Source: a virus. From it: a stretch of DNA of 20,957 nt. A program made the translations under genes and the position numbers. Where the stretch lies: IMG/VR virus record IMGVR_UViG_3300047457_000778, positions 1 to 20,957 of that record. One strand, 5' to 3'. Below the pieces are notes generated by a model. It made no database searches. It worked only from the letters and a program-made list of their open reading frames with translations, and had not been told where the DNA came from. Positions 2,338 to 17,597 of this stretch are shown here, in pieces. How positions within the stretch are numbered: the stretch's first letter is position 1; every line of letters starts with the position of its first letter.

Positions 2338-3324
2338 ATGGCTTACAAAGTAAACAACTTGAATTCCAATGGAAGCATAGAACAGACCGTATCTACAAGC
2401 GGCACAACTGGTTCTCTTCAGTTCAACGATGGAAGTGGTGGGCTGAGTGGAGCATCTCATGTCGGCATAACTGGTGGAAATCTTTGCCTGAAGACAACGA
2501 CAAATCCTGGAAACGCACCAGCAAACAATATGATATTGTGGGCGCAGGATATCGGTGACAGAAAAATGCCGTGCATGAGCGATGACTCGGGCAACTCAAA
2601 CAATCTTCAGTTGTGTGTTGGTAGAACAAAGATAGGACAATGGAGTTTCGTTGGAAACGCGACCACTGCCGCTCTTGCAAATGGGATGGCCGCGCCTTCT
2701 ACTGCGGGAACCGCTACATCTAGAAATGTCGCAACGACAAGTGAACTGGCTTCAATGAGAAGGAATGCATGGGTTTCGGCTACCACGGCAGATGCAGTGG
2801 CAAGCATAAGGACAGCCACATTGCAGTTCTGGAGAGGAAATGCTGAAGGTCTTGGTGGATTCATGTTTGTGATGAGATTTGGTCCATCCGATGCGGCAAA
2901 CTTGGGTACTGGACCATACATGTTCTGTGGACTCAGGGATCAGACAACGGCTCCAACCAGCGTAAACCCAACCACATTGACCAACATAATCGGAGTGGCG
3001 CAACTGGCTGGATCGACAAACATGCATGTCATACACAATGATGCTTCTGGTAGTGCTACCACGATAGATCTTGGAGTTGACTTTCCACTAAGTCTGAACA
3101 CAGAGGCTTACGAAGCAACCTTTGCAGCACCTCCCAACGGATCATCCGTGGGATATCAAATAAAGAGATTGGGAACAACTTACGAAGCCAATGGAACAAT
3201 ATCAAGCGATCTTCCAGCAAACACCACACTGATGGCTATTCAGATGTGGAGATCGAACAATGCCAAGACTGGAAGTGCGGTTGGCCTTGATGTCTCTTCG
3301 GTCTATATTGAAACTGTGGTGTGA
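2338..3324 (+). CDS. Virion structural / receptor-binding protein
   Basis: Probable tail-fibre or capsid-fibre protein of 328 residues. The N-terminus (1-45) is Ser/Gly/Thr-rich with SGTTGSLQFNDGSGGLSG, typical of phage fibre connectors. From about residue 125 it matches, from memory, a domain seen at the C-terminus of many phage structural proteins: SRNVATTSELASMRR, then FWRGNAEGLGGFMFVMRFG, then an APTSVNPTTLTNIIGVAQ-like stretch, and finally MAIQMWRSNNAK and DVSSVYIET. No enzyme motif is visible. The ATG has a GAGG five bases upstream that overlaps the stop of the preceding fibre gene, so translation is probably coupled. The next gene starts six bases after its stop. The structural role is confident; the exact virion location is not. 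Confidence 0.75.
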   Translation: MAYKVNNLNSNGSIEQTVSTSGTTGSLQFNDGSGGLSGASHVGITGGNLCLKTTTNPGNAPANNMILWAQDIGDRKMPCMSDDSGNSNNLQLCVGRTKIGQWSFVGNATTAALANGMAAPSTAGTATSRNVATTSELASMRRNAWVSATTADAVASIRTATLQFWRGNAEGLGGFMFVMRFGPSDAANLGTGPYMFCGLRDQTTAPTSVNPTTLTNIIGVAQLAGSTNMHVIHNDASGSATTIDLGVDFPLSLNTEAYEATFAAPPNGSSVGYQIKRLGTTYEANGTISSDLPANTTLMAIQMWRSNNAKTGSAVGLDVSSVYIETVV

Positions 3325-3330
3325 GGACTC

Positions 3331-3765
3331 ATGTATTACATAATATTTAAAAACAACAAACCAATAAACTCATACAAGGGCATACCATATTCTCTGCTAG
3401 GACTATCTGATACCGATACTCCAACAGCACAAGAACTTGCTGAACTTGATTGTTATGAAATGGTGGATGCGGCAATACCAGACCACGATCCTTATCTGTT
3501 TGCACCTATCGAAAATTGGACTGTTCAAGGAACAAAGTGCATAAGGTCTTGGACTTTCATTGATCAAGATCAAGAGAGCAGTTGGAAATACTTAAGAACA
3601 ATAAGAAATGACAAGATTGCGGAGTGTGATTGGACTCAACTTTCAGATTCTCCACTTTCTGCACAGCAAAAATCGGATTGGGCATCTTATAGACAACAGT
3701 TGAGGGATATTCCCCAAACTTATGAAAAAGCACAAGATGTTGTCTGGCCACAGCCGCCTCAATAA
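3331..3765 (+). CDS. Phage tail assembly chaperone-like protein
   Basis: A small 144-residue protein whose C-terminal part (about 84-144) has the pattern I know from the Phage_tail_APC family: WKYLRTIRNDKIAECDWTQL, then SDSPLS, then WASYRQQLRDIP, ending VVWPQPPQ. Members are thought to be chaperones for tail or fibre assembly and commonly lie just downstream of fibre genes, as here. The N-terminal part (1-80) is a short beta-rich region without a recognised motif. A GAGGA ribosome site overlaps the stop of the previous gene (TGAGGACTC before ATG), which suggests coupled expression. It is the last gene of the first fibre operon. Family call from memory of the motif, not a search. Confidence 0.72.
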   Translation: MYYIIFKNNKPINSYKGIPYSLLGLSDTDTPTAQELAELDCYEMVDAAIPDHDPYLFAPIENWTVQGTKCIRSWTFIDQDQESSWKYLRTIRNDKIAECDWTQLSDSPLSAQQKSDWASYRQQLRDIPQTYEKAQDVVWPQPPQ

Positions 3766-3794
3766 ACAATCAGTAGAACATTCTTTTCATTCGC

Positions 3795-3822
3795 TTGAAT
3801 CCATCGTGATTCGGTGTACGAT
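3795..3822 (+). promoter_or_regulatory. Possible early sigma70-type promoter for the reductase
   Basis: TTGAAT at 3795-3800 and TACGAT at 3817-3822 are separated by 16 bp, upstream of the ribonucleotide reductase. The match is partial. The 112-bp gap after the tail chaperone gene shows no intrinsic terminator and no B12-box-like sequence. Confidence 0.3.
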
Positions 3823-3837
3823 ATACATCGCCCAACG

Positions 3838-3844
3838 CTAAATA
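3838..3844 (+). promoter_or_regulatory. CTAAATA box, T4-like late promoter candidate
   Basis: CTAAATA is a known variant of the T4-type late promoter box in cyanophages. It lies 33 bp before the reductase ATG, with the CAGGAG ribosome site about 17 bp downstream, leaving room for a short leader. A heptamer can occur by chance, so support comes mainly from position and from similar boxes elsewhere in the window. Confidence 0.4.
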
Positions 3845-3877
3845 GACGGCACAACAAAAACAGGAGTACAGTTTCAC

Positions 3878-5797
3878 ATGAGTCTACCAACCCCATATCA
3901 GCAGTTCATCCACCTCTCACGCTATTCAAGATGGCTAGAAAAGGAGGGTAGACGAGAGACTTGGGAAGAGACCGTTGAGCGTTACTTCAAGTTCTTTGAC
4001 GAACATCTTTCTGAAAACCACAAGTTGCAACTTGATTCCAAGATTCGTCGGGAACTGAAGGATGCCGTTCTAAACCTTGAGATCATGCCTTCCATGCGTT
4101 CGCTTATGACCGCAGGAGAAGCCCTCAAGCGGGACAATACGGCTGGCTACAACTGCTCCTATGTGGCAGTCAATCGCGTTCGTGCATTCGATGAGATCCT
4201 CTACATACTGATGTGTGGTACGGGTGTAGGCTTCTCAGTGGAAAGACAATATGTTGAAAAACTTCCTACAATCGCTGAAGTTTTCACTGACTCGGACACT
4301 ACGATCATCGTACAGGATTCTAAGGCGGGTTGGGCGAAGGCTTTTAGGGAACTCATCTCACTTCTTATTGGAGGTCAAGTTCCAAAATGGGATATCTCAA
4401 AGATTCGTCCTGCGGGAGCAAGACTTAAGACTTTTGGAGGTAGGGCAAGCGGACCCAAGCCATTGGAGGATCTGTTTAGATTCACAACCGATACCTTTAG
4501 ACGAGCGGCGGGAAGAAAACTTACTTCCATCGAATGCCACGATATCGTCTGTAAGGTTGCGGAGATTGTCGTCGTCGGAGGAGTACGACGCTCTGCTCTC
4601 ATCTCGCTTTCGAATCTGACAGATGAAAGAATGAGAGATGCAAAGACTGGTGCATGGTGGAACGACAATCCACAACGAGCACTTGCAAACAATTCCGTTG
4701 CATACAAGGAGAAGCCAGAGATTGGAACTTTCCTTGAGGAGTGGGTTTCCCTATACAAGAGCAAGAGTGGTGAGCGAGGAATCTTCAACCGTCAGGCAGC
4801 ACAGAAGACCGTTGCAAAGTTGGGTGATCGTCGTGATCCAAACTACGAATTCGGAACCAACCCATGCAGCGAGATCATTCTTCGTGACTGCGAGTTCTGC
4901 AATCTCACCGAGGTTGTTGTCAGGGCAGAGGACACACCAGAGACATTGATAAGGAAGGTCAAACTTGCCTCCATCCTTGGTACTTGGCAAGCATCGCTGA
5001 CTCACTTCCCATATCTCTCTTCGACATGGAAGAAGAACTGCGAGGAAGAGGCACTGCTCGGTGTTTCACTCACGGGTATTCTTGATAATCACTTCCTTCG
5101 TTCAAGTGGTACGAATGTTGAACTCCTGTTGCAGACCATGAAGGAAGAGGCCATCAAGACCAACAAGGAGTGGGCAAGCACACTTGGAATCAATCCCGCT
5201 GCTGCCATTACCTGTGTCAAGCCATCGGGAACCGTGTCTCAGTTGACGGATTCGGCATCGGGCATTCACCCAAGGCACAATGAGTATTACATAAGGACAG
5301 TTCGCGCAGATCGCAAGGATCCCCTCTGTCAGATGATGATTGACATGGGATTCCCATCAGAACCTTGCGTCATGAAGCCCGACCACACCATGGTCTTCTC
5401 ATTCCCGATGAAGGCAGAGGGTTCAATCACCCGCAATGACCTTTCGGCAATAGAACACCTTGAGTTGTGGTTGAAGTATCAGCGTCACTGGTGTGAACAC
5501 AAGCCTTCAATCACCATCACGGTTCGTGAGCATGAGTGGATGGAGGTAGGAGCATTCGTCTACAAGTATTTTGACGAGATCAGCGGCATCTCCTTCTTGC
5601 CCCACTCAGACCACTCGTATCGACAGGCTCCATATCAGGACTGCACCAAGGAGCAATATCAGGAGTTGTTGAGCAAGATGCCACAGAATGTGGATTGGTC
5701 TATGTTGAAGAACTATGAGAAGGTTGATACAACTGCAAGTTCACAGACATTTGCCTGTTCTGGCGATAAGTGCGAAGTGGTTGACCTAACTACATAA
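3878..5797 (+). CDS. nrdJ: Adenosylcobalamin-dependent ribonucleoside-triphosphate reductase (class II)
   Basis: Reduces ribonucleotides to deoxyribonucleotides with a B12 radical, supplying dNTPs for phage replication in the host cytoplasm. At 639 residues it is about 100 shorter than the Lactobacillus leichmannii enzyme (739). Visible landmarks: AGYNCSY with C93 (first redox cysteine), CGTGVGFS at 113-120, GGVRRSALISLSN at 234-246, and NPCSE at 328-332 with catalytic C330 and E332. C341, eleven residues after C330, is the second redox cysteine; the spacing equals C408/C419 of L. leichmannii. KPSGTVSQL is at 448-456, and the C-terminal shuttle pair is C627-x4-C632. All key residues are present, so it should be active. 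The ATG follows an AGGAG 11 bases upstream. It stands alone between two virion gene groups, as a probable auxiliary metabolic gene. Confidence 0.95.
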   Translation: MSLPTPYQQFIHLSRYSRWLEKEGRRETWEETVERYFKFFDEHLSENHKLQLDSKIRRELKDAVLNLEIMPSMRSLMTAGEALKRDNTAGYNCSYVAVNRVRAFDEILYILMCGTGVGFSVERQYVEKLPTIAEVFTDSDTTIIVQDSKAGWAKAFRELISLLIGGQVPKWDISKIRPAGARLKTFGGRASGPKPLEDLFRFTTDTFRRAAGRKLTSIECHDIVCKVAEIVVVGGVRRSALISLSNLTDERMRDAKTGAWWNDNPQRALANNSVAYKEKPEIGTFLEEWVSLYKSKSGERGIFNRQAAQKTVAKLGDRRDPNYEFGTNPCSEIILRDCEFCNLTEVVVRAEDTPETLIRKVKLASILGTWQASLTHFPYLSSTWKKNCEEEALLGVSLTGILDNHFLRSSGTNVELLLQTMKEEAIKTNKEWASTLGINPAAAITCVKPSGTVSQLTDSASGIHPRHNEYYIRTVRADRKDPLCQMMIDMGFPSEPCVMKPDHTMVFSFPMKAEGSITRNDLSAIEHLELWLKYQRHWCEHKPSITITVREHEWMEVGAFVYKYFDEISGISFLPHSDHSYRQAPYQDCTKEQYQELLSKMPQNVDWSMLKNYEKVDTTASSQTFACSGDKCEVVDLTT

Positions 5798-5830: not shown

Positions 5831-5861
5831 ACAACCTCCAGAAATGGGGGTTGTTTCTTTT
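5831..5861 (+). terminator. Intrinsic terminator after the reductase gene
   Basis: ACAACCTCC (5831-5839) pairs with GGGGGTTGT (5846-5854), 9 bp with one G-T pair, around the loop AGAAAT, followed by TTCTTTT. A second copy of the left arm (ACAACCCCC, 5799-5807) lies just after the stop codon and could pair perfectly with the same right arm, enclosing a small GAGAT/ATCTC hairpin (5811-5823). Confidence 0.85.
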
Positions 5862-7794: not shown

Positions 7795-7824
7795 CAACCC
7801 CCATTTCTGGGGGTTGTTTCTTTT
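7795..7824 (+). terminator. Intrinsic terminator after the 5923 gene
   Basis: CAACCCCC (7795-7802) pairs perfectly with GGGGGTTG (7809-7816) around the loop ATTTCT, followed by TTTCTTTT. The last 17 bases (7808-7824) are identical to those of the terminator ending at 5861, but the loop is the reverse complement of that one. Confidence 0.9.
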
Positions 7825-9422: not shown

Positions 9423-9452
9423 TATAAGTGGGCTTTTGACACCCACATGTGC

Positions 9453-9482
9453 AAACCCCCCGACCTTCTCACGGGGGGTTTT
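9453..9482. terminator. Bidirectional intrinsic terminator between convergent fibre genes
   Basis: AAACCCCCCG (9453-9462) pairs with CGGGGGGTTT (9472-9481) around a 9-base loop. T-runs flank it on both strands (TTTTGCTTT on plus, TTTGC on minus), so it can stop both the plus operon and the minus operon. A smaller hairpin, GTGGG/CCCAC (9428-9446), precedes it. Confidence 0.88.
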
Positions 9483-9485
9483 GCT

Positions 9486-9686
9486 TTACGATGGTTGCCT
9501 GTACTTTATGTGGAGTATTGGCAAATGACTTACGATTCCCCCATCGAAGTTCCTAGAAAATTTAAAGAAGTGTCTACCTGGTGAATGACTGACCGAAAAT
9601 GGTTGTGATAAAGTTGTAAAAGAATTACTCGGTGAGTGTGTCAGTACGGTTGGTGGATTAAAAGCCTGCATAATGAAATCCTTATA
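9486..9686 (-). pseudogene. In-frame 3' continuation of the small fibre-like gene, beyond a TGA
   Basis: Immediately after the TGA of the 143-residue gene (9687-9689) the same minus-strand frame stays open for 66 codons and ends with TAA at 9486-9488. Its last 15 residues (VSHLPILHIKYRQPS) are identical to the end of the giant fibre upstream. The stretch contains an ATG (9671) but no ribosome site. Read through the TGA, the product would be about 210 residues. The likeliest explanations are a nonsense mutation in a once longer gene or a recombination scar; regulated readthrough is possible but unsupported by context (TGA followed by T). Confidence 0.45.
9487..9534 (-). repeat. 48-bp direct repeat, copy A
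   Basis: Identical over all 48 bases to 10130-10177, same orientation, 643 bp apart. On the minus strand it encodes VSHLPILHIKYRQPS and the first two bases of a stop codon (TAA here). It abuts the convergent terminator. Confidence 0.97.
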
Positions 9687-10118
9687 TCAATCCCATTCTC
9701 TTTGTCGTGTAATCGTTAGATTTAGTTTTGCATCAAGTATCTGTGCATTGGTTGGTAGGCTTTGAAGATTGAACGCCATTGCTATTCTTGTTGGTGATCT
9801 TGATTTTGTTTGTTGAGTTATTGGGCCTGGTAGGTTGTCTGGTCTATCATGTCCATCATCCCAGGGGTTTAGTAGTGCTATTGCCATTTCTGGTAATGTT
9901 TCAAAAGATGGATTTGTAGTAGTTATTCTCAACTCTATTGGTATGGTGTGAGGAGAACTAGTTTCTTCCCATCTATTTTTTTGTCCTAATACAGGTGGCT
10001 CATGGAGAAACATGGTGTCAAACTCGGGGATCACTATAACTTCGCCGTCAACGAAGTTTTGAGTTTGAGTTGTTCTTCTTCTCTGAAGTTCTCTCTTATT
10101 AATGAAGTCGCTACGCAT
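9687..10118 (-). CDS. Small fibre-associated protein, DNRLRE-like C-terminus, apparently truncated
   Basis: A 143-residue protein whose start is well supported: AGGAG, overlapping the TAG stop of the giant fibre, lies seven bases before the ATG. The N-terminus (1-70) has no recognised motif. The end, IAMAFNLQSLPTNAQILDAKLNLTI (about 110-135; here written in two parts, IAMAFNLQSLP and TNAQILDAKLNLTI), resembles the first strands of DNRLRE/carbohydrate-binding-type beta domains (LxFDLSSLPxxAxIxxAxLxL). The stop comes right after that strand, where such domains normally continue for another 100 or so residues, and the same frame then stays open for 66 codons. It is the third gene of the minus late operon. 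It may help the upstream fibre bind sugars; that is inference. Confidence 0.6.
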   Translation of the reverse strand: MRSDFINKRELQRRRTTQTQNFVDGEVIVIPEFDTMFLHEPPVLGQKNRWEETSSPHTIPIELRITTTNPSFETLPEMAIALLNPWDDGHDRPDNLPGPITQQTKSRSPTRIAMAFNLQSLPTNAQILDAKLNLTITRQREWD

Positions 10119-10128
10119 GACTTATCTC

Positions 10129-13100
10129 CTACGATGGTTGCCTGTACTTTATGTGGAGTATTGGCAAATGACTTACGTTCTCCACGGTTATTTCAGTTGA
10201 TCCAGATTGTTCCTGAGCAGTTATGGTTCTGCTGAGTTCAAGGTATTGGAACTCTGGTAAACCACTAAGGGCAGTATTTGATGCGGTATCTCCGTCGATA
10301 CCATCGAACATATTCTTGACTTGATATATTCCATTGTTGTTCGGAGATCCACTTATCCTGATGTAAGATCCCGCCGTGATTCCTATGTTGTTCGTACCAC
10401 CAAACAATCGAACATCACTCGCAACCTTATATGCAAGTAGATTCTTTGAACCAGATCCTACGGGATTTATGAATCTCAAGTTGATGGTTGGTTCTGGCTG
10501 TCCTTGTTCTCCTGGAAGTGGTGCGGCTGGTGCTGGAATTCTGTAATCGTTTACAGAAGATAAGAACTGAAATGTTTGATTGAATGCTGCTACCGCTCCA
10601 TTATGCTGGTATGTTGTTGATACTACTCTTCCACTGAACATGGAAACTGGGAATTTATTTTTAAAACGTATTTGGTTTCCATTTGCCTCTGAACCAAGAT
10701 ACTCCATGGTAATGTTTTTACATGTTATGATTGATGGTAGCGTAGTTGAACTTGCAGGATCTATTCTCTCGGCAGAAGTGGATTCATTTGCCGTGGTATT
10801 TGAATTGAAAGTACATGTGCAACCTATTGCTGCCGTTTGAATCTTTGCCAATTTAGATGCATCAATAGGAGTAACCATGTCCATTATAGAAGTTCCATTG
10901 AGAACATTCGATAATGATAATCCATCTATCTCTGCCCTATTGAACTGTACAAATGTATGATGTGGCGACTTCCTAAATGAGAACTGATTGCTTGTTATGG
11001 ATTGAGTTACTTGAGATTCCCTGCTGTTGAAGGCAATGTATGCGAACTTCTTGTAGAAGTCTGTATAATGATTACCTTCTTCATCAATATCGAAATCAGG
11101 TAAAGGTAATCCGTCTTCACCAAATTGTTGTGGTTCTGCCGCTATGTACTTGAACTCTGCCATAGATGTTCCAGGAACACTCTTTCCGTGGAGTATCAAT
11201 GACATGGTTAGACCATTGTTTTTTCTAGCCTTGTTTAGATAAATGGTCGATATATTTGTGATGTCTAGAGAGTTTCTAGTCCCATTTGATGAACTCAAGA
11301 TAAAATCTGCCACTCCTCCAGTCACATAGACACCACCTTGATTACCTACACCAAAGGTATTTCCAATGATTTCGGTGTTTACACTTGAACCTATCTCTGG
11401 ACTACTATTGGGGTCCGTTACCTCTTCTATCCTTTCTAGGTAGTTTGGTATCTGTATCAAATCAGACGATGGGTATATTCCATCTGGTCCATGAGTTGTT
11501 CCAGCAGAGTTGTCTAGATGATCTTTTCTACTCCAAGACATTTCCTTGGTAATGTCCGTGGTGCTAAGTCTTACTGTAATAGGATGGTTTAAGATTGGTG
11601 TTGGTGGGGTTCCAGTCTCACCTTGTTCTGGTCCGGGCGTAGTTTCTTCCTCGACTTCTCTAAAATCGTAGATTATAACACTACCAGGAACATCAGTTCT
11701 AAATCTTGGGGAAATCCAATATGTTTGTCCACCTTCAGAAAGCCATTTTTCAAATCCATGTGTTTCTGTTATTGGTGTATTCTGACTTGTAGTGGGGAAT
11801 AATCTAGCCTGTGGATTTTGTTTGTTTTCTGCATTGCTGTAACTTCTTTGGATGAGTGATGGTCGCATTGCCATAGACGATTCTTTTGCATTTATTTCCT
11901 GTGTAGTACTTTCCACTCCGTCGTATCTAAATGAACCGCCTATCTCCCCATCTTTACCAAACACACAATCTTTTACTATGATATTTCCGTGTTGTCCTCT
12001 TGAAACAATGAATATCGCAGCAGCAACACCAGAAGATGCCACAAAACTACAATCATCGAATACTACGTCTCGCATTACACAGGCGTTGGTTGATCCGCTT
12101 ACTGGTAATTCATCATAAATAGACCACATAGTTTCATAGATTGGAATTGGGTTGTCTACAAATTGCTGTCCGATAGAGTTTAAAATAGTTTTGCCTGGAT
12201 CTAAAAATTGGCCTATTGTGTTTGTTATTCCTGGCACAGAACCACCCGATATGAATGGACCTTGAGACCAGTAATCACTTGCCTTTATGTTTTTGAAAAT
12301 GGAATTTCTTGATCTATTTCCTTGTCCAGGAAATATCTGAAGTGCATCTGCATGTCCTCTGTCAGTTACCCTTTCCCCGCTGAATCCTAAACCATAGAAA
12401 TCTCTATCCAAATTAAACGCTATATTTATTGGGTGTCCGACTGAATCTTTTGCAGTCATATTTACTATACAACCAACATCCCTTATTCCATCTTCAGTCC
12501 ATTTTTCGACATGAACATTGTTGAACAAGTAAAACGATGTATTTTTTGAAATGTTTCCAATGTAAGTCAATGTGCATCCGACCATACACCCAGCACCAAA
12601 ATCTACACCCGCAAATAAGGTTTGTGTGTGTCTTGATTCGAAATTTTGTCCCTCAAAAAACTTGTCTGTCTCATCATCATCATTAGCCCAATTTGGGTTG
12701 AAAGTCCAACCACTATGTCGATAAAGCCATTCGGATCTTCTAAAACGATAATCTTGTGTTGATTCTCCTGGAACTTTCGCCTGTGAAAAATTAAGTTCGG
12801 GGGGTATGATGTTTCCATAAACATCTAAAACTGGATCTACCCTGACATAGGAATCACTTACTTTTTCCCAATCAAACAACCTCTGAAAATTTGCAGTCAT
12901 AAAACAGTTTTCTATAAGCAAATGTTTTGCAGTTATGCCTGTTACCTGGTATGTTTTTCCATTCGCCGTATTTACAAAAGTTTTACTAAGAGGTGCTGTT
13001 AGTTTAAATATTCTTTGATCATCTGACTCTAAGTTTTCTTGTTGACTAATATTTAAGTTTAAAAATCTATATTTATTCAGTGCAAGACCACCACTATTTC

Positions 13101-16950: not shown

Positions 16951-16986
16951 GATCGTGAGAGTAAAAACTCTCACGATCTTTTTTTT
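16951..16986 (+). terminator. Strong intrinsic terminator downstream of gp32
   Basis: GATCGTGAGAGT (16951-16962) pairs perfectly with ACTCTCACGATC (16967-16978) around AAAA, followed by eight Ts. The stop codon and last residues of the opposite-strand GIY-YIG gene lie inside the right arm. Confidence 0.93.
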
Positions 16987-17456
16987 GCTTCGCGCCAAGC
17001 CTTCTTCTGAGCATTGATTCTGTCTTTATTTGCTTTGCGCCAATCCCTCTGCCTAGCATTTATTATGTCTTTATTTTCTTGAAAATAAGCCTTATTTGCC
17101 TTTCTCCAAGCCCTCTTCCGAGCCTTTTCCCTATCATTACGCTCCTTCTTACTTAGACCCTTTGACCACCCTTCCCCACCTATGGTCACATTATATCCAC
17201 CTAGACTCTTATATGTCCTGTAGAGCCAGATGTAGTGATGCTCCATGTAGTTTAGCGTGTGTAGTTCGTCTTCGGACTCGTACAGCATCTCTATAGTGAA
17301 CGAATCAATACCATGCTTCTTAATCGCGTGGTGCAATGGGAACTTTGGATTGTTGGAAATGCAGATATGTTCTTGCCAGCGTTTATCTAGGGTTCTACTG
17401 GTATATCCCACATAGACTGGCTTGGAGTCTCTACGAACGAGATAGATATGGTGCAT
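16971..17456 (-). CDS. GIY-YIG homing endonuclease
   Basis: A free-standing site-specific nuclease that probably promotes its own spread by cutting related genomes lacking it. Start chosen at MHHIYLV because AAAGGA lies six bases before it; the frame extends 32 codons further upstream without such a site. Of 161 residues, 4-17 hold the GIY-YIG signature as IYLV...YVG, followed by R26 and H30 (RWQEH), the metal-binding glutamate in LNYMEHHYI (E72), and GGYNVTIGGEGW (86-97). The C-terminus (108-161) has three basic repeats (RKRAWRKANK, ARQRDWRKANK, AQKKAWREAKK), a DNA-binding arrangement usual in these enzymes. It is inserted opposite to its neighbours, just downstream of gene 32, where T4 carries its own GIY-YIG gene, segG. 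Confidence 0.88.
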   Translation of the reverse strand: MHHIYLVRRDSKPVYVGYTSRTLDKRWQEHICISNNPKFPLHHAIKKHGIDSFTIEMLYESEDELHTLNYMEHHYIWLYRTYKSLGGYNVTIGGEGWSKGLSKKERNDREKARKRAWRKANKAYFQENKDIINARQRDWRKANKDRINAQKKAWREAKKRS

Positions 17457-17484
17457 GGATTGTCCTTTTCTAATCTGTGCCATG

Positions 17485-17515
17485 CCCCTGGGTGGTCCAA
17501 CACCGCAGGGGTTTT
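17485..17515 (+). terminator. Probable intrinsic terminator upstream of the 17598 gene
   Basis: CCCCTG (17485-17490) pairs with CAGGGG (17506-17511), with an inner GGTG/CACC stem and one bulged G, followed by TTTTC on the plus strand. It lies in the 5' leader of the GIY-YIG gene on the minus strand, where no T-run follows. It may be a backup or ancestral terminator of the gp32 unit. Confidence 0.6.
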
Positions 17516-17597
17516 CTATATCTATTGATTGTATATCTTTGAAACAACTCAAGAGGCAGTTTTATTTCCAAAGATATCTTCCCATAAATAGGATTGA

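Follow-up and report, generated by a model that had tools for sequence, protein, structure and literature searches.

Tailspikes of the Ackermannviridae share N-terminal assembly domains and vary at their C-termini, and other tailspikes and fibres have constant C-terminal intramolecular chaperone domains (Peptidase_S74 / ICA type) behind different fibre bodies. The tail-fibre genes of T4-like phages are mosaic and recombine more than their other genes (PMC2993671), and Schizotequatroviruses have recombination hotspots at the receptor-binding-protein loci (PMC12028318). A single phage of the Ackermannviridae encodes several receptor-binding proteins, which are tailspikes (PMC11414711).

The locus described here lies in the window, the whole stretch of 20,957 bases that was analysed, which is an uncultured virus record. 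Like those of T4-like phages and Schizotequatroviruses (PMC2993671, PMC12028318), its family of fibre genes is mosaic with extra recombination, but its paralogues are arranged in tandem within a single genome, and their variable N-terminal part is followed by a constant C-terminal module, named Cdom. One phage encodes several receptor-binding proteins, as in the Ackermannviridae (PMC11414711), whereas the constant module is C-terminal, unlike that of the Ackermannviridae tailspikes. A constant C-terminal domain behind differing fibre bodies is also found with the Peptidase_S74 / ICA chaperones (cf. PMC8326128). In contrast, none of 15 Cdom sequences matches S74 or another fibre family Pfam model at E 0.1, and Cdom also occurs as a separate protein. 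The C-terminal displacement of rhs genes (PMC2935791) similarly comprises gene-end exchange and leftover fragments beside the active gene, but the C-terminal tip of rhs varies and the tip here is constant.

The phage belongs to the T4-like group by its single-stranded DNA-binding protein, gp32 (Pfam, 173 bits), and the best matches of this protein are the gp32 of T4-like cyanophages and pelagiphages, at 53-56%. A GIY-YIG-type homing endonuclease gene (16971-17552; PHROG 314, E 1.4e-17) adjoins gp32, and L033 has a gene of similar appearance next to its gp32. A collagen-like repeat (42-540; Pfam Collagen, 67 bits) is present in the first gene of the window. In the relative L028, a class II ribonucleotide reductase at about 3323-4381 has an apparent intein, noticed by eye (...GVLVHNS before the reductase resumes). 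Small phage proteins ending in APSPGAIALLGMAGLVGRRRR are present in L026 (11588-12250) and also in L028, L063, and L078, with no NCBIfam or Pfam match. This ending resembles sorting signals of the PEP-CTERM type and points to a possible planctomycete host.

A repeat search of the contig shows a direct repeat of 48 bases with 100% identity and a spacing of 643 (Table 1). With up to 3 mismatches allowed, the 48-mer occurs at these two sites alone in the record. On the minus strand both copies encode VSHLPILHIKYRQPS followed by a stop, which is TAA at copy 1 and TAG at copy 2, and the flanking sequences differ immediately. An earlier note on this DNA had reported the position, reading frame, spacing, and divergent flanks of the repeat, and all of these were correct on recheck. 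It had also placed the tail in the giant fibre and a neighbouring frame, which holds; the carrier, however, is a separate 61-aa open reading frame (ORF), and the small gene described as fibre-like has no tail. By arithmetic, an exact pair of 48-mers is expected by chance about 1e-20 times in 21 kb. The 15 tail residues could be written in about 1.4e8 synonymous ways, and the identity of the DNA in spite of this indicates shared ancestry or copying and not convergence.

Table 1. Position and strand of the features at the fibre locus of the window.
Feature	Position	Strand	Remark
Two-hairpin RNA element, conserved, 62 bases	9426..9487	+	Adjoins copy 1; probably 3' end and terminator of plus-strand genes
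61-aa ORF	9486..9671	-	Probable fibre-B gene with an internal deletion; its fibre-B N-terminus continues in frame into the shared tail
Repeat copy 1	9487..9534	-	Final 15 codons of the 61-aa ORF, then conserved hairpin element as after the last fibre of relatives
Junction of remnant body and tail	9534..9535	-	Putative deletion (or mis-assembly) point
First 31 codons of the remnant	9579..9671	-	55% identical (17/31) to the N-terminus of fibre B2 in L022 (G005)
Small conserved gene, MRSDFINK..., 143 aa	9687..10118	-	In relatives directly upstream of the first fibre
Fibre A, 1257 aa	10129..13902	-	N-terminal half resembles the L029/L008 fibre; C-terminal module is Cdom
Repeat copy 2	10130..10177	-	Final 15 codons of the large fibre gene (fibre A) and first stop bases
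Cdom, constant C-terminal module, 486 aa	10132..11589	-	Ends in the tail; 32-68% identity to aligned relatives
Conserved upstream gene, 529 aa	13940..15529	-	Probably structural; in relatives directly precedes the small gene

Judged from sequence, the fibre genes of this group consist of a variable N-terminal part and the constant Cdom, and the final dozen residues of the latter, NVSHLPILHIKY, hardly vary. In about 13 related uncultured phages, this module of ~450-490 residues ends in the conserved VSHLPILHIKY, and the tail has this position in every relative whose contig covers the Cdom end. Nearer relatives have Cdom fused behind a long variable part, and several distant ones have it as a separate protein of 451-476 residues. 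Fibre A scores 870 bits against a Cdom profile that includes its own sequence, over a homologous module ending in NVSHLPILHIKY, and the 14 relatives aligned with the Cdom of the window have the same tail. The earlier note had treated absence of the 15 residues from all relatives as evidence against its proposals, and the tail is present in relatives.

The relatives were obtained from IMG/VR with two queries. The small gene gave nine loci and a profile of the fibre C-terminus gave sixteen, and the set comprises about 13 distinct phages, some of them represented by two contigs. Whole fibre A as a query found no relative in IMG/VR because its patterns are too specific. Searches of Pfam and PHROG gave no family for fibre A. 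Cdom is likewise without a sequence match in Pfam, PHROG, or PDB, comparison of its fold gave nothing significant, and a search of 84,980 genomes of bacteria and archaea revealed no relative of it. Cultured phages, searched at the nucleotide and protein level with the repeat region, fibre A, Cdom, and the small gene as queries, gave nothing useful. The structure model of Cdom has a mean pLDDT of 70. The tail may be a docking or assembly tag, as the earlier note proposed; its final eight residues have a pLDDT under 50 in the model.

One relative, the contig G005 (54.8 kb), has three consecutive fibre genes, and each of their products (1323, 1571, and 1728 aa) ends in Cdom and the tail. The Cdom DNA of the three fibres is 80-85% identical overall, and the identity is patchy. 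Runs of shared variants are longer than expected by chance (permutation p 0.0014, 0.0002, and 0.0004). In two of the three Cdom pairs, stretches of at least 60 and at least 80 bp are exactly the same, and the tails are 91-100% identical. The patchy identity and the long runs of shared variants are therefore a signature of exchange between the fibre copies of G005. The near-identity of fibre 3' ends within a genome is attributed to such exchange between shared 3' modules.

Both ends of the 61-aa ORF in the window are homologous to parts of these fibre genes. Its 3' end is the shared tail and runs into the hairpin element that most relatives have after their last fibre. Its N-terminus has the fibre-B signature MQxFxPP...NxFTTLxQP and aligns to three fibre-B genes in total, with E 1.8e-7 against fibre B2 among the loci compared; none of 20,000 shuffles scored as well. 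The window has a single Cdom, and in place of an intact second fibre gene with its own Cdom only 61 codons are left.

The repeat is probably the remains of two paralogous tandem fibre genes with a common 3' end, one of which has been gutted. The locus seems to record the tandem duplication and decay of a gene, and not a new tag or a gene cassette. A phage of this group may carry a single fibre gene with Cdom or a tandem row, with fibre genes gained through tandem duplication or transfer and 3' modules that would exchange sequence between the copies. The last fibre gene, of type B, would have lost everything between codon 46 and the final 15 codons, presumably in the phage itself. The remaining frame would then start like a fibre B and end in the tail that fibre A also has, its 61-aa product would be without function, and the window would contain a complete fibre beside the remains of another. 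The 48-bp identity would have arisen by the same process of duplication and exchange. Several observations count against this account. The tandem array is seen in one relative only, G005, and the order fibre A, small gene, remnant is found in no relative. No source of the remnant residues 32-46 (GRHFFKFSRNFDGGI) was found in any frame of the loci of relatives. The searches found no close relative with a complete fibre B here, and the lost segment is therefore not directly visible; the fibre-B N-termini as queries in a further scan gave no new phage.

The contig is a fragment of 21 kb from a metagenome, so the join of remnant and tail may also be an assembly error. The real phage would then have a complete fibre B, and the assembler would have skipped from its 5' part to its 3' end through near-identical 3' sequence of tandem fibres. 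This is unlikely, although the exact stretches of 60-80 bp shared by the fibre paralogues of G005 are a type of repeat that confuses short-read assembly. L025 and L026, two contigs of one phage, differ by two mismatches and three gaps over 21.4 kb, which reflect assembly error or natural variation; each gap is a short deletion, and one of the three disrupts the frame of fibre B. The data set therefore does contain discrepancies of this kind. Against a mis-assembly, the join requires sequence that leads from the remnant into the tail, the frame continues through it, and the element downstream is complete.

A role for the 61-aa protein as a functional mini-fibre, for example a cap, a plug, or an assembly competitor that docks by its tail, is very improbable. 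In its favour are an intact frame with a conserved element of the fibre family at either end, an AAGGA that resembles a ribosome-binding site 7 nt ahead of the ATG, and a tail that hardly varies among relatives. However, no other contig has such an ORF, the middle part of the protein is without any match, and an in-frame join is expected by chance in one of three cases.

The tail DNA agrees with a history of duplication and exchange. Over the 11 codons compared, identity is 91-100% within a genome and on average 73% between phages (range 55-100%). L028 and L029, which are closely related, account for the value of 100%, and the window's tail DNA has no more than 85% identity to that of other phages. 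The tail DNA is thus alike within genomes and divergent between phages, and duplication or conversion, rather than selection on the DNA, explains the 48-bp identity. The tail peptide is conserved by selection on the protein. Of the origins that the earlier note had listed for the repeat, recent duplication or gene conversion agrees with these values and with the significant exchange test in the three-fibre array, and DNA-level selection on the 48-mer does not. A functional DNA element (a recombination site or part of a promoter or terminator) kept identical by such selection is scarcely credible: the two copies are identical at wobble positions too, but related phages conserve the peptide and not its DNA, the exact 36-base core of the repeat is absent from the IMG/VR contigs searched, and the RNA fold of the repeat is unremarkable (z -0.36 and -1.05). 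An RNA-structure role of the repeat was rejected on the same fold scores.

The earlier note had further proposed that the 643-bp unit is a gain/loss cassette for fibre accessory genes. This idea is not borne out, as no relative has the unit between tail copies. Wherever the contig of a relative covers the flank, the small gene immediately precedes the first fibre, and for this reason it is not an optional cassette; recombination between the repeats would delete a gene present in all of these relatives. The window differs in that fibre A separates the 529-aa upstream gene from the small gene. What varies between tail copies is whole fibre genes, of which there are two in G005, none in the others, and a gutted one in the window. 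The small protein scores 18.2 bits against the DNRLRE family (NCBIfam NF033679; E 0.002, residues 105-137 only), below the cut-off of 34 for membership, and its structure model is unusable (pLDDT 42).

A broader role of Cdom is possible but doubtful. It may be a homology handle by which whole receptor-binding fibres are gained, swapped, and lost in a tandem row behind the conserved small gene, and the window may represent a phage just after loss of a fibre by deletion. The variable N-terminus and constant C-terminus would reverse the usual order.

The RNA element beside copy 1 comprises two hairpins and is probably the best separate lead in the window. A covariance-model search found it in 14 of 17 contigs, many of which were selected for carrying it, and it was always single, including in contigs of 102-168 kb. 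It is present in about 16 distinct uncultured phages with differing gene neighbourhoods, some of them without a known Cdom. Changes on both sides of a base pair are seen in 11 of its 19 pairs, a number reached by none of 500 shuffles. Rfam contains nothing that resembles it, and a tighter form of its pattern is absent from the 84,980 bacterial and archaeal genomes. On the plus strand a T-rich stretch follows the second hairpin, so the element probably forms the 3' end of the genes that stop at this place and contains their terminator. It is also found a short distance ahead of a plus-strand gene in some phages. Its TGTG loop could pair with the CACA spacer to form a putative pseudoknot. Genes that end in a dockerin-like repeat adjoin the element in L037 (7136-7918; Pfam Dockerin_1, E 5.9e-9) and also in L028, L063, L076, and L078. 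Two similar terminator-like hairpins (CAACCCCCATTTCTGGGGGTTGTTTCTTTT) are found elsewhere in the window, at 5832-5861 and 7795-7824, on either side of a plus-strand gene, and L010 and L038 have sequence similar to them after the last fibre.

The event of duplication, exchange, and decay is ordinary, and the fibre architecture is new to the libraries searched: a variable N-terminal part, a constant C-terminal module, and an invariant tip are combined in no family that they contain. A puzzling perfect repeat now has a plain history of tandem fibre duplication, exchange between copies, and loss of one. Should such arrays turn out to be frequent, they would reveal how this group of uncultured phages maintains several host-recognition genes simultaneously.
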